Assembly: GCA_030840295.1 (NCBI GenBank)
Contig: JAVEET010000174.1
Span: forward strand, 1 to 33,475
Direction: 5' to 3'
DNA: 33,475 nucleotides
From: Pseudonocardiales bacterium
GTDB taxonomy: Bacteria > Actinomycetota > Actinomycetes > Mycobacteriales > Jatrophihabitantaceae
Numbering within the stretch: the first letter of the stretch is position 1; every line of letters starts with the position of its first letter. A model generated the notes under the pieces. The model saw only the letters and a list, made by a program, of their open reading frames with translations, did no database searches and had not been told where the DNA came from. Of the stretch, positions 1,348 through 31,869 are shown one piece after another. Position numbers and translations under genes: made by a program.

Positions 1348-2268
1348 ATGGTCCTTGGCACCGAGCCGGGCGGGGACCCGAGCGCAGAAACTCGGCAGCG
1401 CGGCCGGCTCGTCGTCCTCGGCTCAGCGAATGTCGACCTGGTGCTCGGCGTCCGCGCGCTGCCGTCGCCGGGAGAGACGGTGATGGGTGGTGTGCCGAGT
1501 CGCGGCTTCGGCGGCAAGGGTGCGAATCAGGCCGTCGCCGCTGCCCGCGACGGGGGTCTCGTATCCTTCATCGGGGCAGTCGGCGGTGACGCCGACGGTC
1601 ACGCAATCGCGCGCCAGCTGACTCGCGAGCGCATCGACGTGTCGCGGCTTCGTCGTCTCGGCCATGCCACCACCGGCTTGGCCGTCGTGATCGTGGCGGG
1701 CGACGGTGAAAACTCGATCGTCGTCGTGCCCGGGGCCAATGCTGAGCTGACCCGGCTCTCCCAAGACGACCTGGACTGCGTAGCGGGAGCAGCGGTCCTC
1801 TTGTTGCAGTTGGAAACGCCGCTAGCCGCGGCGAGTGCAGCGGCGCGCGCGGCTCGCGGGTTGGTCATCCTCAACGCCGCGCCGGCCATGCAGCTGCCCG
1901 ACGAGCTGCTGTCAGCGGTCGACGTGCTGGTCGTCAATGAATCCGAGGCGGCGGCGCAGCCGGCTGCGGTGGCTCAGGTCCCGGTAGTCGTGACTACCCT
2001 CGGCGCCGATGGAGTCCTGCTCCACCGGGACGGCTTGCCAGACCTGCATGTGCCGGGCCGCGCCGTGGCAGCTGTGGACACCACCGGAGCCGGCGACACC
2101 TTCTGCGGCGTGCTGGCGGCCACACTCGCGTCAGGCCGGCCATGGCCGACCGCGCTGCACCGAGCCAATGCGGCGGCGTCGCTGTCCGTTCAGCGCCGAG
2201 GCGCGCAGAACTCGCTGCCGACAGCTGCCGAGATCGACATTGCCCTTAGCCACGCTGCAGATCAGTGA
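1348..2268 (+). CDS. PfkB-family carbohydrate kinase, ribokinase-like
   Basis: The product is 306 aa, the usual length for a ribokinase. About 20 N-terminal residues precede the first strand, LVVLGSANVDLVLGV, with the substrate-loop Asn-Val-Asp. The first PfkB signature follows as GGKGANQAVAAAR. The second is DTTGAGDTFCG, in which Asp250 of GAGD is the expected catalytic base and the Gly residues form the anion hole. The enzyme should phosphorylate a sugar or nucleoside hydroxyl using ATP in the cytosol. Ribose is the default guess but no substrate is shown by context. It is convergent with the Nit1C operon, and its last 23 nt overlap the 3' end of the glycosyltransferase gene. No strong ribosome site is seen before the ATG. 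Confidence 0.85.
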   Translation: MVLGTEPGGDPSAETRQRGRLVVLGSANVDLVLGVRALPSPGETVMGGVPSRGFGGKGANQAVAAARDGGLVSFIGAVGGDADGHAIARQLTRERIDVSRLRRLGHATTGLAVVIVAGDGENSIVVVPGANAELTRLSQDDLDCVAGAAVLLLQLETPLAAASAAARAARGLVILNAAPAMQLPDELLSAVDVLVVNESEAAAQPAAVAQVPVVVTTLGADGVLLHRDGLPDLHVPGRAVAAVDTTGAGDTFCGVLAATLASGRPWPTALHRANAAASLSVQRRGAQNSLPTAAEIDIALSHAADQ

Positions 2269-3340
2269 CGCGGTTGTAGAACCTGAGGTGCGCCGCTGCC
2301 GAGTCTTGCCAGCTGTAGCGGGCGGCCAGCGTACGGGCGTCCGCGAGCTGCCCGGTAGGCGGTGCGTTGATGGCGGCGAGCAGGGCGTCCGCGATGCCCG
2401 ACCGGGTGTTGGCGAAGGCCGCGGCGCCGGTATAGATCTCTCTGAGCACGGGCAGGTCTCGCATCACCACCGGGGTGCCGGCGGCCATGGCCTCCATAGC
2501 CGCTAAGCCGAATCCTTCCTTGATGGAGGGGAATGCGAAGACGGCGGCCTGTGCAACCAGCGCCGGCAACCTGTCATTGGCGACAGTGCCCAGGACGGTC
2601 ATCCGCACGCCCAGTTCGTCGGCTCGGTGAAAGACCTGCTGCCGGTAGTCGCGGTAGTCGAAGAGGGTTTCTCCACCGGCGATGACCAGATCGACGTCCG
2701 GTCGATCGCGCTGCAGGCCGGCCATCGCCTCGATCAGGTCGGTGGTGCCCTTGCGGGGTTCTATGCCACCGACGGCCAGGACGTAGGTACCGAGCTGATC
2801 GGCCCAGTCACGGCGGCCCTGATGGTCGGTCGCCGCTTGCGCGAAGCGGTCGGAGTCGACGCCGTTGGGTATCACCTCTGCCCGGAGGCCCCAACCGTCC
2901 GCGACCTCAGTGGCGACGGCGGCTGATACGCAGATGTGCGCGTACGGGCGCACGATGGCGCGCTCGTGGCAGGCAGCCAGTTCGGGCGTGGTGAAGTTGT
3001 CGAGGTGGTGGATGGTGCGGATGCACCGCGGGACGGCGTTGGCGCTGATGCAGTCCTGCGCGTGCACGATGTCGTATCCGGATGGGTCGAACGCTTCCGC
3101 GAGCCGCTGGATGGATCGCACGATGCGGGTACCGACCTCTTCGCCCTCGATCTCCGGCAGCGGCACCAGCCGCAGTCCGACGCGCGGATCGACCGGCCGG
3201 AAGAAGGTGCTGTCCCCGCCTCGGGCCAGGCTCCACACGTCGACCTGGTGGCCGGCGGCCGCCAGCGCTTCGGCGACGGCGAGGGTGTGCACGACCCCGC
3301 CGCGTGGCCGCGTCGAGTAAGTGAGCTGCGCGATACGCAT
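2246..3340 (-). CDS. GT4 glycosyltransferase, MSMEG_0565-like, last gene of the Nit1C operon
   Basis: The product is 364 aa from the ATG at 3340, where MRIAQLTYSTRPRGGVVHT begins a GT-B N-terminal Rossmann domain with the glycine-rich donor loop. The C-terminal half shows the GT4 pattern: YVLAVGGIEPRKG, then EGFGLAAMEAMAAGTPV with the E-x7-E donor-binding pair. It should transfer a sugar from an activated donor to an unknown acceptor. It starts 1 nt after the stop of the upstream nitrilase-like gene, so it is co-transcribed with the Nit1C genes. A glycosyltransferase of this kind (MSMEG_0565 family) accompanies the cluster in mycobacteria. Its role there is unknown. A fusion start further upstream in the same frame is possible but would run through the neighbouring gene. 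Confidence 0.8.
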   Translation of the reverse strand: MRIAQLTYSTRPRGGVVHTLAVAEALAAAGHQVDVWSLARGGDSTFFRPVDPRVGLRLVPLPEIEGEEVGTRIVRSIQRLAEAFDPSGYDIVHAQDCISANAVPRCIRTIHHLDNFTTPELAACHERAIVRPYAHICVSAAVATEVADGWGLRAEVIPNGVDSDRFAQAATDHQGRRDWADQLGTYVLAVGGIEPRKGTTDLIEAMAGLQRDRPDVDLVIAGGETLFDYRDYRQQVFHRADELGVRMTVLGTVANDRLPALVAQAAVFAFPSIKEGFGLAAMEAMAAGTPVVMRDLPVLREIYTGAAAFANTRSGIADALLAAINAPPTGQLADARTLAARYSWQDSAAAHLRFYNRVTDLQRG

Positions 3341-3341
3341 A

Positions 3342-4187
3342 TCAGGCTTGGGCTTTGTCGAGGTAGAGCTCGGGTCGTCGTTCGGTGAGATGGTGCAGCA
3401 CCAACCGGGCGCGGTCGACCTCGGCCTCGACGTCGACCTCGGCGACGGCCAGTCCCGCTTTGGCCCAGGTGCGGGCAAGTACCTCGCCGCCGGGACCGAC
3501 GACCTTGGACTGGCCGAGGAAGCGGAGGCCGCCGGTCGTGCCGGTCTGGTTGGCCGAGACCCACACCACCTGGTTTTCCGCGGCGCGGGCGCAGTCATAG
3601 AGGTCGAACAGCCGCGATTGACGGTCCTTGGGTAGCCGATCTGCTCGGCCCGTAATGCTCGCCGGCCAGGCGGACAGGCAGGCAATGATCCTGGCGCCGC
3701 CGAGGGCCAGCGTGCGTGCAGCTTCGGGAAAGGTCTTGTCGTAGTCGATCAGCATGCCCATCCGACCGATCGGTGTGTCGAAGGCGTCGAGCCGGTCGCC
3801 TGCGGAGTAGACCAGCGCCTCACCTGGCGGCTGGTGCACCTTTCGGTACCGGCCCAGCACGCCGTCTCCATGCACGCACACTGCCGAGTTCCAGCGGCGA
3901 GCGCCCTGGCGTTCGCTGTAACCGAAGCAGACGATCATGTCGCCGGCCAACCCGATGATGCGCCGGATCTCGAGCGAGTCGGGCGCAATTGCGGGCGGTA
4001 GCGCGCCGGGATCAGGTGAGCGCAGATCCGCGAGGTATCCGCCCAATGCGGCGTCCGGCAACACCAGTAGCCGGGCGTCCACCTTCCGCGCAGCCTCGAT
4101 GATCATGCCGATGCGGTCTACCGAGCGGGGGAGGTCCCGCCCGAAGTGTGCCGATGCGGCCGCGATACGCAGTGGCCCGCTGATCAC
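3342..4187 (-). CDS. Nitrilase-superfamily pseudoenzyme lacking catalytic Glu and Cys
   Basis: The product is 281 aa from a GTG at 4187 that overlaps the upstream stop codon as GTGA. It aligns throughout with the nitrilase encoded 1.2 kb upstream: HFGRDL near the N terminus, LPDAALGGYL, RKVHQPPGE, GRMGMLIDYDKTFPEAAR, WVSANQTGT and ELYLDKAQ near the end. The nitrilase triad is Glu-Lys-Cys. Here the positions read Asp45, Lys116 and Asp148, so only the lysine is kept. The fold is intact and the frame is undamaged, so this is not a decaying gene. It is probably a duplicated, non-hydrolytic partner or ligand-binding protein. It may form hetero-oligomers with the active paralogue, since nitrilases assemble into spirals. 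That last point is inference. Confidence 0.85.
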   Translation of the reverse strand: MISGPLRIAAASAHFGRDLPRSVDRIGMIIEAARKVDARLLVLPDAALGGYLADLRSPDPGALPPAIAPDSLEIRRIIGLAGDMIVCFGYSERQGARRWNSAVCVHGDGVLGRYRKVHQPPGEALVYSAGDRLDAFDTPIGRMGMLIDYDKTFPEAARTLALGGARIIACLSAWPASITGRADRLPKDRQSRLFDLYDCARAAENQVVWVSANQTGTTGGLRFLGQSKVVGPGGEVLARTWAKAGLAVAEVDVEAEVDRARLVLHHLTERRPELYLDKAQA

Positions 4188-5443
4188 CGGGCGGCACTCG
4201 CGGCAAGCTTGCCACTGTGCTCACGGGCCCGAAGCTGGGCAGCGAGGTAGCCGGCGTCGACTTCGATACCGGCGAACCTGCCGGAGCCCCAAGTGTGCAA
4301 CCACGGCAACCCGATGAAATAGAGACCCGGGACGGCGGTGACGCCGCGCAGCTGCTGCGGATGCCCGGCACCGTCGAAGACTCCGGCGTGCAGCCAGCGG
4401 TAGTCGCGGCTGAAGCCGGTCGCCCACACCACGGCCGCCAACTCACCGACCGGTAGGCGCGAGCCACGGTAGGCCGCCGGGCGCCACACCGGCCGGTACC
4501 GGGACGGCTCAATGGCCGACCGGATGGCGTTCCTGGCGATGTGATCATCGATCATCTGATTGATGCCGTTGTACACCGCGTCGGCGGCGTCGAGGCTCTG
4601 CTCGAGATCGTTGGCGAAGACCAGTTCGCTGCCAGCGATGTCTCGTAGGTGGCCGTGCAATGTCATGCCGGCGATCGCGAATGCGCGCAGGTCGATGTCG
4701 CGGCCGCCACCGCGTCCGGTGACGTAGTGGTTCGTCTTGTCCTGGCTGCGTTCCTCGACAGGTTTGTCGGTGACCGGTTTGGCGTAGTGGCCGGTGTCGT
4801 GCAGCCAGGCGATGACGTCTCGGCCGCGATACCGGCGGGCGAAGCGTGGGGCGTTACCGACGGCCAGGTGCACGTCGCGACCGGCGAGCAGCAGGTCCTC
4901 GGCGATCTGCGCGCCGGACTGCCCGGTGCCGACCACGAGCACCGGACCGCCAGGTAGCTGCTGCGGGTTCTTGTATTGGGAGGAGTGCAACTGCAGTACC
5001 TGCTGGGGAAGCCGTTCGGCCATCCGCGGGATGGAGGGATCGTGGTATCCGCCGGTGGCGACGACGACCTGCTCGGCGCGGATGGAACCTTCCGCGGTGG
5101 TCACATCGAAACCGTCGCCGTCCGCTGCGGGCCTCAGCGAAGTGACTGTGGTGTGTTCACGGACGGGCGGGTCGAAACTGGCGACGTAGCCGGCGAGCCA
5201 GTCGGTGAGCTCCGTAGCGACCATGAACCCGTCCGGGTCCGGCCCGTCGTAGCTGTAGCCGGGCAACCGGCACTGCCAGTTCGGGGTCACCAGGCAGAAG
5301 CTGTCCCAGCGGGCATCACGCCAGGAATGCAGGAGGGTGTCGCGTTCGAGTACGACGTGCTCGATGCCATCGCGCGTGAGGTGCCAGCTCACCGCGAGGC
5401 CGGCGTGTCCGCCGCCGATGATGACGACCGGGATCCGTTCCAT
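4184..5443 (-). CDS. Flavin-dependent monooxygenase/oxidoreductase, MSMEG_0569-like (Nit1C)
   Basis: The product is 419 aa. The ATG at 5443 shares one base with the stop of the upstream nitrilase (TGATG). It begins VVIIGGGHAGLAVSWHL, the FAD-binding Rossmann GxGxxG variant. A second dinucleotide site follows as VLVVGTGQSGAQIAEDL, typical of class B flavoprotein monooxygenases that use NADPH. VVWATGFSRDY matches the C-terminal ATG motif of that group. The C-terminal part has GLPWLHTWGSGRFAGI, conserved in members of this cluster from memory. It is expected to oxygenate an organic substrate, with FAD regenerated by NAD(P)H. The physiological substrate in Nit1C clusters is not established. Position and family both support membership of the operon. 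Confidence 0.85.
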   Translation of the reverse strand: MERIPVVIIGGGHAGLAVSWHLTRDGIEHVVLERDTLLHSWRDARWDSFCLVTPNWQCRLPGYSYDGPDPDGFMVATELTDWLAGYVASFDPPVREHTTVTSLRPAADGDGFDVTTAEGSIRAEQVVVATGGYHDPSIPRMAERLPQQVLQLHSSQYKNPQQLPGGPVLVVGTGQSGAQIAEDLLLAGRDVHLAVGNAPRFARRYRGRDVIAWLHDTGHYAKPVTDKPVEERSQDKTNHYVTGRGGGRDIDLRAFAIAGMTLHGHLRDIAGSELVFANDLEQSLDAADAVYNGINQMIDDHIARNAIRSAIEPSRYRPVWRPAAYRGSRLPVGELAAVVWATGFSRDYRWLHAGVFDGAGHPQQLRGVTAVPGLYFIGLPWLHTWGSGRFAGIEVDAGYLAAQLRAREHSGKLAASAAR

Positions 5444-6276
5444 CAGCTGTGCGCCTGGCTCAGATAAGCGGCTGGGCGTCGGTCGCGGAGGTGGAACATT
5501 CCGCCTCGCGCCGCGTGCAGCATCCGCTCGAGGTCGACGCTGGCGACTGCCATGCCCGGCGAAGTACCAGTACTGGCGAGCACATCCCCACCGCAATCGA
5601 CGATCTTTGCGCTGGCCACGAACCGCATCGTTCCGAAGGTGCCGGACTGGTTGGCCGATACCCAGAGCACCTGATTCTCCAGCGCGCGTGCCCGGTCGTA
5701 GAGATCGAACCGACGGGTCCACCGATCGTCGGCCAGGTCTGGGCTCGGGTTCGTTCGCGCGGCCGGCCAGGCCGACATGCAACAGATGATGTCGGCACCG
5801 TCCAGCGCCAGCGCCCGGGCGGATTCGGGAAACGCCTTGTCGTAACAGATCATCATCCCCAGCCGCCCGACCGGCGAGTCGAAGGCGTCGAAGCTGTCGC
5901 CGGCCGCGTAGGAGACACCCTCGCCGAGTGGTTGGTGCACCTTGCGGTGCACGCCGAGTAGTCCGTCGCCGGTCAGCGCGATCGCTGTGTTGTACCGGAT
6001 AGCGTTGTCGGCTTCGCAGATCCCAGCCGTGACGACGAGGTCACCGGCCAGTGCGGTCAGCCGCTTGACCTCGGGGCCGTCGATGTCGAGTGCCGGTGGC
6101 AGTGAGGCCGGGCCGCCATTCAGGGTTGACAGGTACCCGCCGAGCGTCGCCTCAGGCAGGACGACCAGCTCGGCGCCCCGGCTGCGGGCCTGGTCGAGCA
6201 GTTCTTCGATTCGGGCGAAGGCCGCGTCCAGGTCACGGCCGAAGTTGGCCGCGACCGCCGCCACGGTGATGGGCAT
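5443..6276 (-). CDS. Nitrilase, Nit1C type (Sll0784-like)
   Basis: The product is 277 aa. The start chosen is the ATG at 6276, preceded by AAGGAG at good spacing; an in-frame ATG at 6309 would overlap the upstream stop as ATGA but has a poorer context. The full catalytic triad is present: Glu42 in VVLPEATLGGY, Lys112 in HRKVHQP and Cys144 in GMMICYDKAFPE. Other family features are YNTAIAL and WVSANQSGTFG. Nitrilases convert R-CN to the acid and ammonia through a thioimidate on the cysteine. The Nit1C enzyme is the core member of a cluster linked to cyanide assimilation and nitrogen starvation. Compare it with the triad-less paralogue two genes downstream. Confidence 0.92.
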   Translation of the reverse strand: MPITVAAVAANFGRDLDAAFARIEELLDQARSRGAELVVLPEATLGGYLSTLNGGPASLPPALDIDGPEVKRLTALAGDLVVTAGICEADNAIRYNTAIALTGDGLLGVHRKVHQPLGEGVSYAAGDSFDAFDSPVGRLGMMICYDKAFPESARALALDGADIICCMSAWPAARTNPSPDLADDRWTRRFDLYDRARALENQVLWVSANQSGTFGTMRFVASAKIVDCGGDVLASTGTSPGMAVASVDLERMLHAARGGMFHLRDRRPAAYLSQAHS

Positions 6277-6305
6277 GCCAGTTCTCCTTCGAACATCAAC
6301 GGAAT

Positions 6306-7697
6306 TCATGCGGTGCCGAGACCGGTGACGGCACCATTGATCGCGGGCGTGAGTTCACCGTCGGGCCAGCGCAACGCGACACCAGCGCCGGCAACAAGTT
6401 CACCGCATACCGCGCTGGTTGCCGGACCCGGAGGTGGCAGCGACGCGCCGGGGTGGTCGGTAGTGAGCATGGCAAAGCCCGGGAAACAGGCAAGCCAGTC
6501 AGCGGTGCTGGCCGCAGCCGGTGTCGGCACCGCGGCGATGTCGAGCACCGCACCGCAGCCACTGGCCTCCGCGAGCATGCCGAGCGTTCCGACGGTGCCG
6601 GCCATGCTCACGTCCTTCGCGGCGGCGGGAGCGGTCGCGGCGACGAGGCCGAGCATGGACCGCAGGTGCTCACCGGACCGGGTCGTGGTGGAGTCCCACT
6701 GGCGTCCGGTGTGTCCATGCCGCCACCCGCCGCCGAGATCGGCCGTGAGCGTGACAGCGTGGCCGGGGCGGCCGCCGCCGGCGGGGACCGGACGCTCGGT
6801 TCGTCCCAAAGCCGTCACGCTCAGCGCGGCGGGGACCCCGAACTGGGTATGCCCACCTACTACCGGCACTTGGTACGCCTCGCTTGCCGCGCGTAGCCCA
6901 GCGAGGATGCGGGCAGCGAAGGATGCGTCACGCGCCGCCACCGAGTCCAGGAGCGCCACCGGGTGGGCGCCCATGGCGCAGAGATCGTTGAGGTTCACCA
7001 ATACCCCGCACCAACCTGCCCATTCCGGGTCGCGTTCCACCAGAGACGGGACGATCGCGTCACAAGCAGCGACCAGATCGCTTCCCGGCACCGGGACGCC
7101 GTCGTCACCGACGAAGCCCGGGCCACCGAGGTGCAGGCCCGCCAGCAGCGCGCCGAGTGGCGCCTTCGTCGCCTGGGCCTGGCCTGCAAAGCGCTCAATC
7201 GGCCACCGCATCTGGAGGTGCGCCGTCCCGGCGACCGCGACCGGGCTCAGCCGCTGCCAACCGAGCCGCCGAAACAGCGGTTCGTTGGCGGCCTGGACGG
7301 AGGCTTCGAGCCTGAGCACACCGCGCTGCTCGGCGTGGGCACAGGCAGCGCGCACCAACGCCGGCCCGATCCCCCCGTGGCGGCGGGCATCCCGCGAAAC
7401 AGCGAGGCGGCTGCCGGTCCACCAGCCGATATCCTGGCCCAGCGTTGCGACTGGCGCCAGCCGGACTCCGCCGAGGATCGTGCCGTCGTCCGCGCGGGCG
7501 ACCAGCACCACGGTGCGTGGATCGTCGTCGGTGTCATCCAGGTCGCTGCCAGAAAATAGTGCCTGCTCATCGACAAAGACGTCGCGCCGCAGCCGCCGGT
7601 ACGCCTCGACCGTGGCCGGGTCGTCGGCGACCTCGATCGTCCAGGCCGGCGCGGCGAGGGTCGCGGCGCCCAGCAGACATGCTCCGAGGGCGTGCAT
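6306..7697 (-). CDS. Fused GNAT acetyltransferase and AIR-synthase-like protein (MSMEG_0567-like, Nit1C)
   Basis: The product is 463 aa; the ATG at 7697 overlaps the radical SAM stop by one base. Residues 20-170 are a GNAT domain: AYRRLRRDVFVDEQ, then SRLAVSRDARRHGGIGPALVRAAC, the acetyl-CoA pyrophosphate loop, and EPLFRRLGWQ. Residues 175-460 resemble AIR synthase/ThiL ATP-binding proteins: GDDGVPVPGSDLVAACD, then VNLNDLCAMGAHPVALLD with a likely metal-binding Asp, VVGGHTQFG, and a long GTVGTLGMLAEASGCG region. In cyanobacteria these are two adjacent genes (sll0786 and sll0787 types). Here they are one polypeptide, as in the mycobacterial form. The reaction is unknown. ATP-dependent activation plus acyl transfer is an inference from the folds. 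Confidence 0.82.
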   Translation of the reverse strand: MHALGACLLGAATLAAPAWTIEVADDPATVEAYRRLRRDVFVDEQALFSGSDLDDTDDDPRTVVLVARADDGTILGGVRLAPVATLGQDIGWWTGSRLAVSRDARRHGGIGPALVRAACAHAEQRGVLRLEASVQAANEPLFRRLGWQRLSPVAVAGTAHLQMRWPIERFAGQAQATKAPLGALLAGLHLGGPGFVGDDGVPVPGSDLVAACDAIVPSLVERDPEWAGWCGVLVNLNDLCAMGAHPVALLDSVAARDASFAARILAGLRAASEAYQVPVVGGHTQFGVPAALSVTALGRTERPVPAGGGRPGHAVTLTADLGGGWRHGHTGRQWDSTTTRSGEHLRSMLGLVAATAPAAAKDVSMAGTVGTLGMLAEASGCGAVLDIAAVPTPAAASTADWLACFPGFAMLTTDHPGASLPPPGPATSAVCGELVAGAGVALRWPDGELTPAINGAVTGLGTA

Positions 7698-8788
7698 CAG
7701 GCGCCCACCGCGCTGAGCACCCCGCACGCGCCGCAGGCGGCGCACCCGGCTTGTTGGTCGGCACCGACCATGCCGGCCGCGCGCAGCAATTCCGCGACCC
7801 GTCCACTGACATCGGCGAGCAGCGCCGCGTCCGGGCCGATGGCGCCGTCCTGGGCAGCGAGGGTGGCGGTCATCGGCCGGAAGGGCACCACGAAGGGATA
7901 GACGCCGCGGGCGATCAACCCGGCCGCTCCCGCCACGAGTTCGTCGGGGTCCTCGCCGAGACCGAGCAGCAGGTAGGTGGAGACCCGGTTGCGGCCGAAG
8001 ACTCGTACCGCCTCGTCCCAGGCCGCCTCGTACTGGCTCAGCGGCACACTGGCCTTGCCGGGCATCCAGCGTCGTCGGACCTCGTCGTCAAGGGACTCGA
8101 CGTGGATGCCGATCGCCACCGCTCCCGCTTCGCGCAACAACCTGATCGCGTCGAGGTCGGCGGGCGCCGGTGGCTCGCACTGCACTTGAATGGGCAGGCC
8201 GGGGACCGCTTGCAACACGGCACGCGCACTGCGGGCGAGCACTCGTGCTCCGCGGTCGGGCCCGGCGGTGGTGCCCGTGGTCATCACCATCTGCCGGATT
8301 CCGTCGAGGCGGACCGCGGCTTCAGCGACCTCGGCGAGCTGGGCGGGTGTCTTGGCTGCGACCGTCGAGCCCGCGCGTAACGACTCCTCGATGGTGCAGA
8401 AACGGCACCGGTCGGCCTCGTCGTAGCGGATACAGGTTTGTACCACGGTGGTGGCGAGCACGTCCGCGCCGTGCAAGCGGGCGATGTGCTCGTAGGGCAC
8501 CCCGTCGGCGGTGCTCAGGTCGTAGAAACGGGGCCGCGCCACCGTACGCACAGGCAGTCCGACCGGTTCGTCACCGAGCCACATCTGTCCGTCGCGCAGG
8601 CTGTACGGGCTCGCTGGGTTGATCGGCAGTGTCGCATTGCCGCCACCGATCACCAGATGCCCGTCGTCGCTCGGCCCGGCGCCACCGCGCCGGTACACCG
8701 GCGCGGCGACCCGGACGCCCGTGACGGCCAACTTGCTCCGCAGTCCGATGGTGTCACCCAGCGGTACGTGGCGGTTCGTGACCGACAT
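7697..8788 (-). CDS. Radical SAM protein, MSMEG_0568/Sll0785-like (Nit1C)
   Basis: The product is 363 aa. The ATG at 8788 has a strong AGGAGG site and lies 13 nt after the upstream stop. The iron-sulfur cluster motif is atypical: Cys119, Cys128 and Cys131 in QTCIRYDEADRCRFC, a CX8CX2C arrangement instead of the usual CX3CX2C. The wide spacing is a feature I recall for this family. The barrel continues with MVMTTGTTAGPDRG and YLLLGLGEDPDEL. Three more cysteines lie near the C terminus in GCAACGACG and could ligate a second cluster or a metal. It should use a 5'-deoxyadenosyl radical. The product made by the Nit1C system is not known. Confidence 0.87.
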   Translation of the reverse strand: MSVTNRHVPLGDTIGLRSKLAVTGVRVAAPVYRRGGAGPSDDGHLVIGGGNATLPINPASPYSLRDGQMWLGDEPVGLPVRTVARPRFYDLSTADGVPYEHIARLHGADVLATTVVQTCIRYDEADRCRFCTIEESLRAGSTVAAKTPAQLAEVAEAAVRLDGIRQMVMTTGTTAGPDRGARVLARSARAVLQAVPGLPIQVQCEPPAPADLDAIRLLREAGAVAIGIHVESLDDEVRRRWMPGKASVPLSQYEAAWDEAVRVFGRNRVSTYLLLGLGEDPDELVAGAAGLIARGVYPFVVPFRPMTATLAAQDGAIGPDAALLADVSGRVAELLRAAGMVGADQQAGCAACGACGVLSAVGA

Positions 8789-8801
8789 GAGGCCTCCTCG
8801 C

Positions 8802-9338
8802 TCAGACCATGTAGGTGGAGTTGATGATCGCGCCCTTGCGGGCATAGTGGATCACCGCATCCTGTACGTCGAGCGGGTGCGCGGGGATGACGCCGGCAAT
8901 GAGGTCTTCCTCTCGTGCACCGTGCAGCGCGAGGCCGAAGCGACAGCAGTAGACGGTCCCGCCCTCGCCGATGAACGCTTCGAGAGCGGCGTTGATGTTC
9001 GTCTCTCCGGGGAACGCGGCGTCACCGGTAGTGGGGAAACCCCGGTTGGCGATGCAGTTGATCGAGCCGGGTCCGTAGAAGTAGATGGCCGACTCGAAGC
9101 CCTTACGCAACGCTCTGGTCGCCTGCAACACCGCTACGAATGACACCGACGATTCGTGAGCGATGCCGTGCACGAGGGTGAAGTAGGACTCGCCGTTCAC
9201 CGCCTGGTAGTCGGGGAAAATCTTCGTGCTGCCGTAGATGTTGCTCCCCTTTGGCAACGAGGGGTGCGGGATCTCGGCCAGGCTCTTGGCGATATTGGCC
9301 GCGAGCAGGTCCTCGGGTACTGCTTCGACTGCGGTCAT
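8802..9338 (-). CDS. MSMEG_0572/Sll0783-family nitrogen-starvation protein (Nit1C)
   Basis: The product is 178 aa with a ribosome site AAGGAG before the ATG at 9338. The sequence shows PKGSNIYGSTKIFPDY, HESSVSFVAVLQATRAL, YFYGPGSINCIANRGFP and GGTVYCCRFGLALHG. I recognise these as the conserved core of the protein that opens Nit1C clusters, called Sll0783 in Synechocystis. There the gene is strongly induced on nitrogen starvation and its loss affects polyhydroxybutyrate build-up. The Cys-Cys and Cys-containing loops resemble DsrE-like folds, but I cannot prove that from sequence alone. No signal peptide or membrane segment is present. It is the second gene of the operon, 34 nt after the amidohydrolase stop. 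Confidence 0.85.
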   Translation of the reverse strand: MTAVEAVPEDLLAANIAKSLAEIPHPSLPKGSNIYGSTKIFPDYQAVNGESYFTLVHGIAHESSVSFVAVLQATRALRKGFESAIYFYGPGSINCIANRGFPTTGDAAFPGETNINAALEAFIGEGGTVYCCRFGLALHGAREEDLIAGVIPAHPLDVQDAVIHYARKGAIINSTYMV

Positions 9339-25861: not shown

Positions 25862-27055
25862 TCAGCTGTCGCGGGATGCCGGCATCACGCCGAGCGCGCG
25901 AGGGAATGCAGCTGGTATCACGAGATCATCAGGGCTGAGTTCGGCGATGGCGGAGCGGCCGAGGCCGAGGAGGGCGGAGTCGATACCGCCGCGGAGAATG
26001 TCGAGCACGTTCGTTACGCCGGCCTGGCCATTGGCGGCCAAGCCCCAGAGGTAGGCGCGGCCGATCATGACCGCCCTGGCGCCGAGAGCAACGGCCTTCA
26101 CAACGTCGCTGCCGCGCCGGACGCCCCCATCAAGCAGGATCTCGAGCTGATCACCGACGGCCCCGGCGATAGCGGGGAGCGCCCGGATCGGCGCAGGTGT
26201 GCCGTCGAGGTTGTTTCCGCCATGGTTGGAGACCGAGATGGCGGTGACGCCGGCGTCCACGGCGCGCTTGGCGTCATCGACCCGCATGATGCCCTTGAGC
26301 ATGAACTCCCCGCCCCACTGTTCGGCCAGCCAGGCGACATCCTCCCATGTGGGTAAGGCCGATTGCATCCACTGCCCGTACGCGCCGAAGAAGGTGAGCG
26401 GGTCCTCTCCGGGCGCCACCATGTTCGGCACCGTCAGATCCGGGATCCGCCCGGTCTTGGCGAAGGCGAGCAGCCACCGAGGATGCCGCAGGCCCTCGGG
26501 AGCGAACCGGATCAGCTCCCGGAGGTCGATCTTGTCGGGGATGTGCGGGCTCCCCCAGTCCCGGCCGTGGGAGAAGGACCAGTCCAGGGTGATGATCAGA
26601 CCGACCGCGCCGCCGGCCTTGGCCCTTTCGGTCCGGGCCAGCATGTCGTCGCGGTTGCCGATCCAGTAGCTCTGGAAGAAGGTCTGCGGGTTCGCTGCGA
26701 CCACCTCCGTAAGCGGCTTGCTGGCAAACGAGCTCAATCCCATGGCGGTGCCGCGAGCGGCGGCGGCGCGGGCGACTGCGACTTCGCCGTCAGGGTGAAC
26801 GGCCTGGACACCGGTGGGCGAGATGATGACGGGCATCGAGATCGGCTGACCCATGACGGTGGTGGCCAGATCGCGCTTGGACGACAGGCCGACGGCGTGC
26901 GGGGCGAAGCCCAGTTCGTCGAAGGCGGTGAGGTTTTCGCTCAGTGTCAGGCCCTTCTCGCTGCCGGCGATCAGGGCACCGTAGACGGACTTGGGTAGCC
27001 GTTTCTTCGCGCGTCGCTGCGCCTCTGCGACGGTTTCGAACCAGGCGGTTGCCAT
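25862..27055 (-). CDS. mftD: Mycofactocin maturation FMN-dependent dehydrogenase MftD
   Basis: The product is 397 aa with AAAGG before the ATG at 27055, 12 nt after the mftF stop. It is an alpha-hydroxyacid-oxidase-type TIM barrel: SMPVIISPTGVQAVHPDGE (FMN phosphate side), GLSSFASKPL, FFQSYWIGN, IMRVDDAKRAVDAGVTAISV, SNHGGNNLDGTPAP and ILLDGGVRRGSDVVKA. MftD oxidatively deaminates AHDP, the valine-tyrosine-derived intermediate, to premycofactocin, giving the redox-active dicarbonyl. In the classical order mftD follows mftC. Here it is at the far end of the operon after mftF. The identity is very secure. Confidence 0.93.
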   Translation of the reverse strand: MATAWFETVAEAQRRAKKRLPKSVYGALIAGSEKGLTLSENLTAFDELGFAPHAVGLSSKRDLATTVMGQPISMPVIISPTGVQAVHPDGEVAVARAAAARGTAMGLSSFASKPLTEVVAANPQTFFQSYWIGNRDDMLARTERAKAGGAVGLIITLDWSFSHGRDWGSPHIPDKIDLRELIRFAPEGLRHPRWLLAFAKTGRIPDLTVPNMVAPGEDPLTFFGAYGQWMQSALPTWEDVAWLAEQWGGEFMLKGIMRVDDAKRAVDAGVTAISVSNHGGNNLDGTPAPIRALPAIAGAVGDQLEILLDGGVRRGSDVVKAVALGARAVMIGRAYLWGLAANGQAGVTNVLDILRGGIDSALLGLGRSAIAELSPDDLVIPAAFPRALGVMPASRDS

Positions 27056-27067
27056 GATGATGCCTTT

Positions 27068-28696
27068 CTAAAGGTAAAAGCGGATCCGGGCGAGCAGTGG
27101 TGCCAGAGGTTGCCGTCGGGATTTAACCCGGTCGCGAAGGGTGTCGACACGTAGCGGGCGCCAGACCAGGCGGGGGCGCAACGGCAGCATGGTGCCTTCG
27201 CGCAGCGCTCCGGCCCACACCCCGGCGCCGTAGCTGATGTCATCGGCACACTGGGCCAGCAGGAACCGCGCCGGGTCCAGCTGCGGCCGCCGTTTTGCCC
27301 AGGTGGCCAAGGGCGGGCCGAACAGCAGGGACGCGGCGGCGCCCCGGCGACCCCAGCGGCGGGTGCGGGTACGGCCCCCTGGTTTCACCAGAGCGGTAAG
27401 GAGGAACGGGGAGCCGAACTGAGTCAGGTAGCGTCCCAGGCCGAGCCAGGTCTGGTTGCTGGCCGTGGCCATGGCGGGCACCACCCCGCGCGCCGGGATG
27501 TTCGCGCGCTGCAAGCTTGCGCGCATGCTGAGCACGGACCCGGCGAAGCCCACGGCAGCCACGGCCGGGCGGCGCCCGAGCAGTGCGGTCACGGTGAGGG
27601 TCGGCCAGGGGTGCAGGGCCAACGGAGCCATGGCCTCGGGGTGGCGCGCGGCCAGCGGCGCGGCCGACGTCCCGTAGCGGAACCGCCTGGCCAGTAACGC
27701 CCGCCAGGTCTCCGGCTCCTGGTGGCCGACCTCGACCGACGGATCATAGCGGATTCGCCAATCAGCGTCGTGCAATCGCCAGATCAGGTCGACGTCCTCA
27801 CCGACTCGCAGGGACTCATCGAACGGTGCGGTTCCGAGGGAGACCAGGGCTGCCCGCCGGACCAGCAATGCGGCGGTGGGAACGTAGGACACCCGCCCGG
27901 ACGCAAGGACCCGGGCCTCGCGAGGACCGAGGTCGAGGCTTCCGTTGGCTTCGGTGAACCGGCTGGCCAGACTCTTAGGGGCCGAACCGGGATGCGCCTG
28001 GGCGGGATGAGTCGGCGCAGATTGAGTCGGCCCAGATCGAGCCGGCCCAGATTGAGCCGGCCCAGATCGAGCTGGCCCAGATTGAGCCGGCGCGGATTGA
28101 GCTGGCGCAGCGGCGACGATCCTGGGTGCGACGGCAGCTACCAGCGGGTCGGCGAAATGTGCCGCGAGTCCGGAGATCCAGTCCGGGCCCGGGATGCAGT
28201 CACTGTCGAGCAGAGCCACGAATTCGCTGGTGCTGAAGGCCAAACCGGTGTTACGGGCCGCCCCCGGACCTCCGTTGTCAGGCCGCGACAGCAGGATGGC
28301 TCCGTGAGCTCGGACGACCTCGGCCACCGCTTGTGGATCGCGAGACGCGTCGTCGACGATGACAACCGGGTACCGCCGCCCGAGTGCCGTAAGGCATCGA
28401 TCGAGCAGGCGTGCCCGATCGCGGACCGGGATGAGCACAGTGACGTCGAGCGGCGCGGTCCGCGCGGGTGGCCTGGGATGGGCGACATTGGCGTCGGTGA
28501 GTTTGCGGGCCAGAGCGCCGGCCGCCGGCGTGGAAATGCTGCCGGCGCGGAGTTCGGCCAGAGCCGGGCGTCCGGCCGCGGAGATGCGCATGATCCGCGC
28601 CGGCGAGCCACCGAACAGCACCGAGTCGTCCAGGTCCTTGGTGTCGGGATCGAATTCGATGGAGAACCCGATCGGAAGCGGCGCCACGGAATTCAT
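27068..28696 (-). CDS. mftF: Mycofactocin glycosyltransferase MftF with a repeat insertion
   Basis: The product is 542 aa, longer than the roughly 470 aa I expect for this family. Residues 8-80 form the PqqD-like N-terminal part typical of MftF (LPIGFSIEFDPD, SVLFGGSPARIMRIS). A GT2 domain follows: VTVLIPVRDRA, VIVDDAS, GGPGAARNTGLA and LLDSDCIPGPDWI with the DxD-type metal site. A low-complexity insertion of Ala/Gln/Arg-Ser-Gly-Pro pentads occupies about residues 195-236. The domain then resumes at RFTEANGSLDLG and VGEDVDLIWRLHD. MftF adds beta-1,4-linked glucose units to premycofactocin. The ATGA overlap with the SDR gene indicates coupled translation. Confidence 0.9.
   Translation of the reverse strand: MNSVAPLPIGFSIEFDPDTKDLDDSVLFGGSPARIMRISAAGRPALAELRAGSISTPAAGALARKLTDANVAHPRPPARTAPLDVTVLIPVRDRARLLDRCLTALGRRYPVVIVDDASRDPQAVAEVVRAHGAILLSRPDNGGPGAARNTGLAFSTSEFVALLDSDCIPGPDWISGLAAHFADPLVAAVAPRIVAAAPAQSAPAQSGPARSGPAQSGPARSGPTQSAPTHPAQAHPGSAPKSLASRFTEANGSLDLGPREARVLASGRVSYVPTAALLVRRAALVSLGTAPFDESLRVGEDVDLIWRLHDADWRIRYDPSVEVGHQEPETWRALLARRFRYGTSAAPLAARHPEAMAPLALHPWPTLTVTALLGRRPAVAAVGFAGSVLSMRASLQRANIPARGVVPAMATASNQTWLGLGRYLTQFGSPFLLTALVKPGGRTRTRRWGRRGAAASLLFGPPLATWAKRRPQLDPARFLLAQCADDISYGAGVWAGALREGTMLPLRPRLVWRPLRVDTLRDRVKSRRQPLAPLLARIRFYL
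28006..28110 (-). repeat. Seven tandem 15-bp units inside mftF
   Basis: Seven consecutive units of the type ATTGAGCCGGCCCAG (plus-strand reading) vary at a few positions and keep the reading frame. They encode pentapeptides such as AQSGP and ARSGP. The array sits in a presumed surface loop of the glycosyltransferase and accounts for about half of its extra length. Confidence 0.9.
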
Positions 28697-29517
28697 AACG
28701 CGAGGCCGCCGTCGACCGGCACGATCGCTCCCGTCATACCGCTGCTTAGCCTAGAGGCGAGGAACGTCAGCACAGCGGCGATCTCGGACGCTTCTAGCAG
28801 TCGCTGAAAGGGTTGCTGGACGGCGAAGGCGGCCGCTGCGGGGAGATCGTAGAGCCGGGCGCTCTCCGCCAGGATGGCCGTGTCGGTGGAACCGGGGCTG
28901 ACCGCATTGGCCGTGATTCCGGAATCGCCGAGTTCGACGGCCAGCGCGCGGATGAGCCCCGCCACCCCGGCCTTGGCGGCGCAATACGCGGCCAGCATCG
29001 GCAGGCCCTGGGTTGCGGCAGCGGACGCCACCGCCAGAAATCGTCCGCTACGCGGCGCCGGACGCCGCAGCAGCGCCGGAACCGCAACCCGGGCGAGGTT
29101 CAGCACGCCACCGAGGTCGACCTCGAGCACCGTCCGTTCCCGCTCCACCGGCACCTCCCACAGTGGGGCGCCGCCGGCGATTACTCCGGCGACGGCCAGG
29201 GCGGCGTCGAGCCCACCCCATTGCTGTTCGGCTTCGGTTACCGCGGCTTGTAGGGCGGCCAGGTCCCGGACATCGGCCTGGTAGGACCGCACCCGGCCCG
29301 TGCTGCCGGAGCGACGGTTACCCTCACGGACCACCTCGGAGAGCTCGTTCCCGGTGCCCATCGAGTATTCGAGGGCGGGGTCGTCGGTGGCGGCGTCCAC
29401 CGCGAGCACGCACCAACCCTCTGACGCGAGCGCCAGAACTGTGGCGGCGCCGATGCCGCGAGCGGCGCCGGTCACCAGGGCTACCCGTCCGTTCTCGGCA
29501 TCCGCCGCGGAGCTCAC
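28693..29517 (-). CDS. Mycofactocin-dependent SDR-family oxidoreductase
   Basis: The product is 274 aa from the GTG at 29517 that overlaps the mftE stop as GTGA. It shows the Rossmann motif ALVTGAARGIGAATVLALA, then an insertion after strand 2 (TDDPALEYSMGTGNELSEVV). This insertion is characteristic of SDRs that hold NAD(H) tightly and depend on mycofactocin to recycle it. The catalytic Ser lies in VASAAATQG, with Tyr and Lys in YCAAK. AVSPGSTDT and MTGAIVPVDGGLAL are C-terminal family features. The likely substrate is an alcohol or carbonyl compound of unknown identity. Being embedded between mftE and mftF, it is the cofactor's most obvious client in this window. Confidence 0.9.
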   Translation of the reverse strand: MSSAADAENGRVALVTGAARGIGAATVLALASEGWCVLAVDAATDDPALEYSMGTGNELSEVVREGNRRSGSTGRVRSYQADVRDLAALQAAVTEAEQQWGGLDAALAVAGVIAGGAPLWEVPVERERTVLEVDLGGVLNLARVAVPALLRRPAPRSGRFLAVASAAATQGLPMLAAYCAAKAGVAGLIRALAVELGDSGITANAVSPGSTDTAILAESARLYDLPAAAAFAVQQPFQRLLEASEIAAVLTFLASRLSSGMTGAIVPVDGGLAL

Positions 29518-30224
29518 CGCAACACCGGCAGGCACCAGGTGGCCACCTCGTCGATCAATCGTGCGGCGAGCACGTCGAGCAGCCTGCGTCCGGCCGCTGC
29601 GGTCGCATGGGTAGGGTCGCCGAGCACGCCGGTCTCGGTGACCGCGCGGACGCCGCCCGAGCGCAGCAACGGCCAGGTTTCGGCCAGCGACCGGACATCA
29701 CCGCGCACGGCGCGATCCAGCTGCACCAGTTCGGGCGCCAGGTCGAGCATCATGGACGTTTCCGGGTGGCCGGCGTGCGGATCGCCCTCCCACCGTGGCA
29801 GATACAGCAGCACGTCGCGGGACTCAGCGCGCAGGGTGCGAACCGCTGCGGTCACCGCCTCGGTATTGCCGCCATGGGCCGAGACGAACACCAGATGTTC
29901 GAAGGTATCGGTTGCCGACCGGCCCAGTTCCAGAACGATCAGCTCCACCGCGACCCGCCCAATCGACAATGTCCCGGCAAAGCCGGCATGTTCTCCACTG
30001 GAACCATAGGCCAGCGGCGGTGCGATGATCACATCCGCTCGGGACTCGCCCAGTCGGCGACACAGCGCCAACGCGACATCGGTGTCGGTGGACAACGGCA
30101 GATGCGCGCCGTGTTGTTCGGTCGACCCGAGGGGGACGGCGAGGATGGCGCCGCCCGCCGCCCGCCGGCCGACCTCCGGAGAGGTCAGTTCGGCGAGCAG
30201 CACGGCGGGGGACTGAGCGGGCAC
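29514..30224 (-). CDS. mftE: Mycofactocin peptidase MftE (creatininase family)
   Basis: The product is 236 aa. The start is taken as the GTG at 30224, 4 nt after the mftC stop; a GTG at 30203 is the alternative. The creatininase-fold metal ligands are visible in ILAVPLGSTEQHGAHLPLST (Glu, His and the following Asp in DTDVA), FVSAHGGNTEAV and GHPETSMML. MftE cleaves the MftC-modified precursor and releases AHDP, the C-terminal Val-Tyr cross-linked unit. It follows mftC directly, where mftD would be expected. No clear ribosome site is visible, so translation is probably coupled to mftC. Confidence 0.92.
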   Translation of the reverse strand: MPAQSPAVLLAELTSPEVGRRAAGGAILAVPLGSTEQHGAHLPLSTDTDVALALCRRLGESRADVIIAPPLAYGSSGEHAGFAGTLSIGRVAVELIVLELGRSATDTFEHLVFVSAHGGNTEAVTAAVRTLRAESRDVLLYLPRWEGDPHAGHPETSMMLDLAPELVQLDRAVRGDVRSLAETWPLLRSGGVRAVTETGVLGDPTHATAAAGRRLLDVLAARLIDEVATWCLPVLR

Positions 30225-30228
30225 GCCG

Positions 30229-31452
30229 CTAGCTGCTTTGTTCGGCCGGTACGAAGTCGGCCAGTGGGTTCTCGTTGCAGGCGCTGACCGGTGCGCGGGT
30301 TTCGGTACGCGGCCGACCCAGGGTGATCGGTACCGAGCGCGATCCCGATGTACTGCGTCGGGAGTGATCCAGCGAGGGTCTCGGCGCGCTGCCAACCGCA
30401 ACACCGGCCAGAGCCAGTTCCCCGTGGCCTTTGACGCATTCGGGATCGGGGCCATCGAGGGGGAGGCCGGTGAAAAACTTGGCCGCCATGCAGCCTCCGC
30501 GGCAGGCGTCGAACGCCGAGCAGGAGTTGCAGGCACCGCCGGTCTGTGGCCGGCGCAGATCGGTGAACAGCTCCGAGTGTTGCCAGACTTCCTGAAATCC
30601 GCCGGGCGAGCGGACGTTGCCGGCCAGGAAGGTGTCGTGGATGGCGAACGGGCAGGCATAGACATCTCCCACCGGGTCGATCAGGCAGACCACCCGCCCC
30701 GCCCCGCACAGGTTCAGCCCGGGCAAGGCGTCGCCGAACGCCGCCAGGTGGAAGAAGGAATCACCGGTGAGCACCCCTTCGCCGTTGGCGACCAACCAGT
30801 CATAGAGCACCCGTTGTTGCTGCGCGGTCGGGTGTAGCTCGTCCCAGACATCCGCGCCTCGGCCGGACGGCCGTAGCCGCGTTATCCGCAGTTGGGCGTT
30901 GAACCGGTCGGCGATCGCCTTGAAGGCATCGAGCTGGTCGACGTTCTGTCTGGTCATCACGACTGAGATCTTGAATCCGGCAAAGCCGGCGTCGGCCAGG
31001 TTCTGCATGGCGCGTAAGGCGGTTTCATAGGATCCGCTGCCCCGGACAGCGTCATTGATCTCCGCGGTCGCGCCGTCGAGCGAGATCTGGACATCGACGT
31101 AGTCGCTGGCCGCGAGCCTTCGGGCGACCTCGGGGCTCAACTTGATGCCGTTGGTGGAGAACTTCACCCCCACGTTGTGGGCAGTGGCGTAGTCGACCAA
31201 ATCCCAGAAGTCCGAGCGGACGGTCGGTTCACCACCGCCGATGTTGACGTAGAAAACCTGCATCTTTTCGAGTTCGTCGATGATGGCCTTGCATTCGGCC
31301 GTCGTCAACTCGGCGGGATCGCGTCGGCCCGAGCTGGACAGGCAATGTACGCAAGACAGGTTGCAGGCGTAGGTCAATTCCCAGGTCAGGCAGATAGGCG
31401 CATCCAGTCCGAGCTGAAATTGTTCGACCAAGGGCAGGGTCGTCGCCGTCAT
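30229..31452 (-). CDS. mftC: Mycofactocin radical SAM maturase MftC
   Basis: The product is 407 aa with an ATGA overlap with mftB. The radical SAM cluster motif is Cys30, Cys34 and Cys37 in YACNLSCVHC. GGGEPTVR and VQISLDGAT are standard barrel motifs. The C-terminal SPASM region carries CGAGRVVCLIDPVGDVYACP and CNSCSAFDACRGGC for two auxiliary clusters. A tail ending ENPLADFVPAEQSS is typical of MftC. The enzyme decarboxylates the C-terminal tyrosine of MftA and then forms a carbon-carbon bond with the preceding valine, with the help of MftB. Every key residue appears intact. Confidence 0.95.
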   Translation of the reverse strand: MTATTLPLVEQFQLGLDAPICLTWELTYACNLSCVHCLSSSGRRDPAELTTAECKAIIDELEKMQVFYVNIGGGEPTVRSDFWDLVDYATAHNVGVKFSTNGIKLSPEVARRLAASDYVDVQISLDGATAEINDAVRGSGSYETALRAMQNLADAGFAGFKISVVMTRQNVDQLDAFKAIADRFNAQLRITRLRPSGRGADVWDELHPTAQQQRVLYDWLVANGEGVLTGDSFFHLAAFGDALPGLNLCGAGRVVCLIDPVGDVYACPFAIHDTFLAGNVRSPGGFQEVWQHSELFTDLRRPQTGGACNSCSAFDACRGGCMAAKFFTGLPLDGPDPECVKGHGELALAGVAVGSAPRPSLDHSRRSTSGSRSVPITLGRPRTETRAPVSACNENPLADFVPAEQSS

Positions 31453-31745
31453 GCTGCTCCTCGCTCAGTGATCATGTTCGATGTCGCCAGCGTCGCCAAC
31501 GCGCTGCGGTAACTGGACAACTCGGCGGCTTGGACCCCGGCGTGCAGACACGCCGCACGGGCGCTGGGCTGGGCATCCAGCGACTTGACGACCGCGAGCA
31601 GGGCGGGGTTCTTGAGGAAGGAAAGCCGCCTCGTCCCGAAGTGGTACAGCAGGGCGCCGAATCGTTCCGGACGGATGGACACCTGGGAGTGCAGACTCCA
31701 TGCGGCGTCGAGATCGAATGGTGGCGCCGGAGGGCTAGTAGACAC
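31449..31745 (-). CDS. mftB: Mycofactocin precursor-binding chaperone MftB
   Basis: The product is 98 aa from a GTG at 31745 that lies 11 nt inside the end of mftA. It has the RRE/PqqD-like fold pattern: AWSLHSQVSIRPERFGALLY, then FGTRRLSFLKNPALLAVVKS and a C-terminal helix SYRSALATLATSNMI. MftB binds the MftA leader and presents it to MftC. Its frame ends in an ATGA overlap with mftC, in keeping with stoichiometric expression of the two partners. Confidence 0.93.
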   Translation of the reverse strand: MSTSPPAPPFDLDAAWSLHSQVSIRPERFGALLYHFGTRRLSFLKNPALLAVVKSLDAQPSARAACLHAGVQAAELSSYRSALATLATSNMITERGAA

Positions 31746-31869
31746 CGCACATGCCGTCGATCGAGACCTCCTCGACGAGCGACTCCTCGACCAGCGATTC
31801 CTCGACCAGCAACTCCTCGGCCGGAACTGCGGTCGGGTGGTCGGTCACCTCGATGGCTGCGTCGGGCAT
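31735..31869 (-). CDS. mftA: Mycofactocin precursor peptide MftA
   Basis: The product is 44 aa from the ATG at 31869, with GGAGG 8 nt upstream. It ends in IDGMCGVY, the invariant end of mycofactocin precursors. The last two residues, Val43 and Tyr44, become the cofactor. The acidic leader holds an expanded repeat, LVEESLVEESLVEEV, where most precursors I recall have one or two LVEE units. A longer in-frame reading to 31947 exists but the ribosome site argues against it. mftB begins within the last codons, so the two are co-translated. Confidence 0.95.
   Translation of the reverse strand: MPDAAIEVTDHPTAVPAEELLVEESLVEESLVEEVSIDGMCGVY
31768..31812 (-). repeat. Three tandem 15-bp units in the mftA leader
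   Basis: Three near-identical 15-bp units (CTCCTCGACCAGCGA on the plus strand) encode repeated SLVEE pentapeptides in the leader that MftB and MftC recognise. A fourth, more diverged unit follows at 31813-31827. Confidence 0.85.

Follow-up and report, generated by a model that had tools for sequence, protein, structure and literature searches.

The closest described counterpart of the protein analyzed here is MftF of M. smegmatis (MSMEG_1426; TIGR03965), a 470-aa glycosyltransferase credited with the beta-1,4-glucose chain on the redox cofactor mycofactocin (available part of PMC7491314). Cellulose synthase BcsA, also a GT2 enzyme, has the same GT-A fold and makes a beta-1,4-glucan, the kind of product credited to M. 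smegmatis MftF (available part of PMC7491314). E. coli BcsA lacks an insert at the place matching the one described below. To our knowledge, the channel and PilZ parts of BcsA are not shared with MftF. Pentapeptide-repeat proteins (Pfam PF00805) are built on the unit A(N/D)LXX. Coding VNTR-like arrays and low-complexity regions of prokaryotic proteins consist of in-frame head-to-tail units, with predicted disorder and a copy number that varies among relatives. General papers on intragenic repeats include PMC6821194 and PMC6868369. Among the mycofactocin papers surveyed, no title or abstract describes inserts in MftF; the nearest paper deals with mycofactocin-associated dehydrogenases and, in its available part, contains the word "insertion" 21 times (PMC5264612).

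We analyzed a stretch of 33,475 nucleotides from a Pseudonocardiales bacterium (contig JAVEET010000174.1, assembly GCA_030840295.1), referred to below as the window. It carries a mycofactocin operon on one strand, in the order mftA, mftB, mftC, mftE, SDR gene, mftF and mftD, and the gene set from mftA to mftF is complete:

31735-31869, minus strand: mftA, 44-aa precursor with LVEES-type 15-bp units at 31768-31819
31449-31745, minus strand: mftB, GTG start assumed (TIGR03967, 108.3 bits, cut-off 33)
30229-31452, minus strand: mftC, radical SAM maturase (TIGR03962, 658.2 bits)
29514-30197, minus strand: mftE, matched part through to the stop (TIGR03964, 272.3 bits)
28693-29535, minus strand: mycofactocin-coupled SDR (TIGR04504, 350 bits)
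27068-28696, minus strand: mftF, mycofactocin glycosyltransferase, 542 aa (TIGR03965, PF00535 and PF13641)
25862-27055, minus strand: mftD, pre-mycofactocin synthase, downstream of mftF (TIGR03966, 703.8 bits)

The mftF product scored 354 bits against TIGR03965 (cut-off 280) and shares its family, operon context and catalytic motifs with M. smegmatis MftF. The first-pass annotation had mftF at the far end of the operon from mftA, a position that mftD in fact occupies. The SDR stop and the mftF start overlap by four bases (28693-28696), which suggests translational coupling, and an overlap of the same kind joins mftB and mftC (31449-31452). The same contig also carries, at 2246-9338 on the minus strand, a cluster of MSMEG_0565, 0567, 0568, 0569 and 0572 family proteins, whose members are a glycosyltransferase, a GNAT-AIRS fusion, a radical SAM protein, a flavin oxidoreductase and a nitrogen-starvation protein.

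MftF had been called unusually long, and it is: the window protein exceeds that of M. smegmatis by 72 residues, about 40 of which belong to a repeat insert after the VAPRI strand that the M. smegmatis enzyme does not have. In all likelihood the insert is a repeat expansion of an ordinary kind that the enzyme tolerates, and not a new mechanism. The features of mftF that bear on this are as follows:

28199-28207, minus strand: intact DSD (DxD) motif at residues 164-166; neither D164 nor D166 varies in an alignment of 20 MftFs
28121-28123, minus strand: Arg192, just before the insert; conserved in at least 90% of the 20 MftFs and aligned to E. coli BcsA H390 (R. sphaeroides His276)
27968-28108, minus strand: full extent of the insert, tail included (residues 197-243), in the window and in a sister species (alignment and comparison with the sister locus L009)
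27989-28108, minus strand: array of eight 15-bp units in codon phase, seven of them clear and the eighth degenerate, encoding (A/G)P(A/T)(Q/R/H)(S/P)
27926-27940, minus strand: SLDLG motif, residues 253-257, just after the insert; aligned to E. coli BcsA TLFYG (R. sphaeroides Phe301/Tyr302)
27794-27802, minus strand: intact GED motif at residues 299-301, which includes the presumed catalytic base; neither E300 nor D301 varies in the 20 MftFs

TRF reported the array at 28008-28110 (period 15, 6.9 copies, 86% matches, score 136), the top score among six arrays in the window. Seven 15-bp units had been noted at 28006-28110; there are seven clear units and a worn eighth. Between 28108 and 27989, in the direction of the gene, the units translate in frame as APAQS, APAQS, GPARS, GPAQS, GPARS, GPTQS and APTHP, followed by the degenerate AQAHP; they stand head to tail, their period is a multiple of three and the frame is open. 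Shuffling the codons of the entire mftF gene (1000 times, maximum 68) or those of the insert alone (1000 times, maximum 81) never gave a score of 136, nor did any of 200 second-order Markov copies of the window (maximum 72). We concluded that the array is not a product of chance. No other copy of the unit was found in its own genome at up to two mismatches, and at three mismatches there were five matches outside mftF compared with seven for a reversed-pattern control; origin from a dispersed repeat was therefore rejected. With the pentapeptide-repeat proteins the insert has only the five-residue period in common: it is Pro-rich and predicted to be coil, and MftF gave no match to PF00805 at E 1e-5, the four families matched all being GT2.

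The sister locus, from a Pseudonocardiales MAG (G006, contig C388, JAVEEN010000298.1), encodes an MftF 92% identical to that of the window. Both proteins carry the insert at the same residue, with 47 aa in the window and 37 aa in the sister, or eight and six repeat units, respectively (both genomes are draft assemblies, and the array length could be off). The change in repeat number that had been proposed is thus borne out between species. The flanks differ at 27/588 and 51/900 bases. Divergence between units is 3.0 and 2.9 per 15 bases within each species, compared with 5.4 between species, and the last two units and the tail of the two arrays align as orthologues. The likeness of units within a species, together with the difference in copy number, indicates copy-number change and homogenization after the split; the units were multiplied and homogenized separately in the two species. 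The hydrophilic Pro/Ala/Ser-rich stretch itself is common to both and absent from the other relatives examined, and was presumably gained once, in their common ancestor. Like coding VNTR-like arrays, the mftF array has in-frame head-to-tail units, a varying copy number and predicted disorder; unlike typical ones, it lies in the middle of a catalytic domain, and its variation is seen here between species.

Could such an array be an assembly or sequencing artefact? The genome is a draft of 375 contigs, repeats misassemble easily, and in a further genome of the family the mftF loop coincides with two contig ends. An artefact is nevertheless very improbable: the separate sister assembly has an in-frame array of its own at the same residue, the units bear distinct substitutions, the frame is open and the array is just ~120 bases long.

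To estimate constraint, we calculated NG86 dN/dS ratios. The flanks gave 0.22 and 0.19, the units within the two arrays 0.90 and 0.71, and the orthologous tail 1.2 (a short stretch with few sites). The array is under relaxed constraint relative to its flanks. A ratio of 0.55 between the arrays is below 1 and counts against a neutral reading, although the units so compared are not one-to-one orthologues. Relaxed constraint inside the insert would also fit a decaying pseudogene that tolerates junk; the chance of this is extremely slim, given the low dN/dS of the flanks, the intact catalytic motifs, the complete gene set from mftA to mftF and the open sister orthologue. D115, D116, D164, D166, E300 and D301, which make up the GT2 motifs DD, DxD and ED, are invariant across the 20 aligned MftFs. 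The window MftF appears to be a working enzyme, presumably still oligo-glucosylating mycofactocin.

Next, we examined the link with mftA. The shared period that had been noticed is real, both arrays having 15-bp units (mftA, 31768-31819, 3.5 copies) within the same operon, and a single dedicated slippage process that makes the two arrays co-vary could be read into it. We sampled 557,603 bases from 60 of the 375 contigs and counted non-overlapping arrays with a score of at least 50. Among the 85 arrays found, periods divisible by three accounted for 58, and 15 bp, the commonest period, for 17. In-frame arrays are thus common in this genome, as an ordinary expansion would have it, and an equal period in mftA and mftF is weak evidence of a common process. 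Against this use of the sample, the period is frequent in two other genomes without ranking first: 11/85 arrays in G022, after 12 bp with 14/85, and 6/48 in G029, after 30 and 18 bp with 7 each. Array density was 15.2 per 100 kb in this genome and 21.2 and 12.0 in the other two. Few arrays in the sample score as high as that of mftF (4/85 with at least 136), which tells against an ordinary expansion. MftA is 44 aa long in both sisters, whose mftF inserts are 10 aa apart in length. The mftA and mftF arrays also differ in unit sequence, and that of mftF has no near copy elsewhere in the genome. MftA was found by motif in 9 of 20 loci scanned, and in 5 of the 7 MftAs outside the two sisters the leader units are spaced exactly five residues apart, which indicates that the 15-bp period belongs to the leader. 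The proposal of a common slippage process thus fails on the commonness of the period and the equal mftA lengths, and a dedicated process is hardly credible.

We then placed the insert in the GT2 fold. In the alignment of the 20 MftFs it follows the strand VAAVAPRI and precedes ASRFTEANGSLDLG, between the DxD (164-166) and GED (299-301) motifs, both intact. PF00535 matches as far as residue 195 and PF13641 over residues 85-340, so that the Ala/Gln/Arg-Ser-Gly/Ala-Pro linker does lie inside the GT2 domain, as first described. Its flexible, Pro-rich character agrees with the AlphaFold model of the domain alone (mean pLDDT 72), in which residues 200-239 are all predicted coil with pLDDT 33-36, compared with block means of 83-97 over the first 110 residues. 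The model of the whole protein (mean pLDDT 53) is weak outside the GT-A core, and low pLDDT of the insert there is unspecific; the contrast comes from the domain-only model. The disorder prediction was built on 8-sequence alignments.

The surroundings of the insert were compared with those in BcsA. The fold match to E. coli BcsA (9fnn_A) gave Z 22.4 and rmsd 2.7 over 233 aligned residues, and the MftF profile matched E. coli BcsA with a probability of 77% and E 2e-5, pairing R192 with H390 and D255/L256 with F415/Y416. R. sphaeroides numbers (available part of PMC4849487) follow from the E. coli ones by an offset of 114 that holds alike at FFCG, TED and QxxRW. In simulation, R. sphaeroides BcsA His276, Phe301 and Tyr302 make contact with the glucan end (available part of PMC4849487). 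By alignment, the insert would join two acceptor-side segments. Of the donor or acceptor site near which the loop had been suggested to lie, the acceptor side is plausible by the profile alignment with cellulose synthase.

How unusual is the loop? From 145 loci with an MftF-like ORF, 123 remained after removal of rows below 200 bits and contained duplicates, and 121 distinct MftFs, complete in the loop, after removal of two half genes from G015. In this set, which is non-random (top-scoring loci plus rows added for looking odd), the loop from VAPRI to SLDLG measured 22-25 aa in 105 MftFs, 11 in 6, at least 27 in 10 and at least 42 in 5. The window loop of 64 aa (54 in the sister) is ~40 aa above the usual length. 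Eight internal inserts of at least 15 aa were counted in the 123 aligned MftFs, and five of them sit at this loop. The six 11-residue loops (L101-L105 and L112; family f9, genus g39) are without the ARYE stretch. Viral scans for further GT2 relatives added one useful locus, L118, and little beyond.

Among 397 genomes drawn evenly from the order, 207 had a match to MftF at 1e-40. In the matches listed, G266 alone had a single match of clearly greater length; its locus L093 carries another insert, of 35 residues and located in the C-terminal half of the protein. Where the best match of a listed genome was split, the cause was a loop insert in G000, G006, G156 and G176 and a contig break in G015. 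The window's own family gave MftF matches at 1e-40 in 9 of the 24 genomes searched. Of these nine, G006 and the window genome carry the insert, G015 has a break at the loop, and no loop insert was found in the other six, which include the same-genus G005, source of the third MftF found in the genus. In G015 the break lies between two contigs (C58 and C298; loci L047 and L048) that reach the loop from opposite sides and show no overlap; a repeat at the loop may have broken the assembly there.

Besides being shortened in one genus, this loop carries unrelated inserts in another family. Of that family, G156 has three perfect copies of a 27-bp unit, and G176 and G402 have Pro/Arg/Trp-rich inserts; the amino-acid sequences are unrelated between lineages. 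In a tree of 42 hand-chosen rows (44 were named, two being absent from the deduplicated set; 10 of the 39 inner branches were drawn open), an expanded label, set at a loop of at least 31 residues and so taking in L271 (31 aa), requires at least four changes when placed on all 42 rows, or one when the 8 expanded rows are set against the two "short" rows alone. Three unexpanded rows share a starred clade with G156. In the insert of L261 (G402) there is a perfect palindrome of 28 bases, along with a W(P/A)RRPL(Q/G)GW unit in duplicate. At up to one mismatch, the palindrome core occurs at four sites in G402 (mftF among them) and at one in G176 outside its mftF, and was not found in G000, G156 or G343 (control, 0). 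These counts are above the control, yet the sites are too few for a dispersed family, and the palindrome was rejected as a mobile element.

Recurrent expansion at one site between acceptor-aligned segments could mean that the loop is functional and not merely permissive. Its length would then tune glucan chain length, acceptor capture or the docking of MftD or another partner. The position between R192 and SLDLG, aligned to the glucan-contacting His276 and Phe301/Tyr302 of BcsA, and the expansions in several lineages are in line with this. In M. smegmatis without mftF, PMFT and PMFTH2, which are aglycons, were abolished as well; as possible reasons the authors discuss a complex or a glycosylation that has to precede the MftD step (available part of PMC7491314). 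On the other side stand the relaxed dN/dS of the array, the lack of relationship between inserts of different lineages and the loop of 22-25 aa in 105 of 121 MftFs. On balance we regard a functional loop as unlikely. Its more specific form, in which repeat expansions gained more than once between glucan-holding segments make a length-adjustable lid that sets the mycofactocin sugar-chain length, or the partner, species by species, is decidedly improbable. An effect of the insert on glycoform length is possible.

We concluded that the array is probably an in-frame repeat expansion whose turnover is nearly neutral, in a loop that tolerates changes of length and belongs to an MftF that is otherwise normal and working. 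New copies would arise by replication slippage or unequal recombination, a unit length that is a multiple of three would keep the reading frame, and a disordered surface spacer loop would tolerate extra copies with little or no effect on catalysis. As the commonest site of large inserts in the MftF set (5/8), the loop is a natural place to test the control of sugar-chain length. If it is idle, it may serve as a handy insertion site for tags; if it matters, a natural length series already exists.
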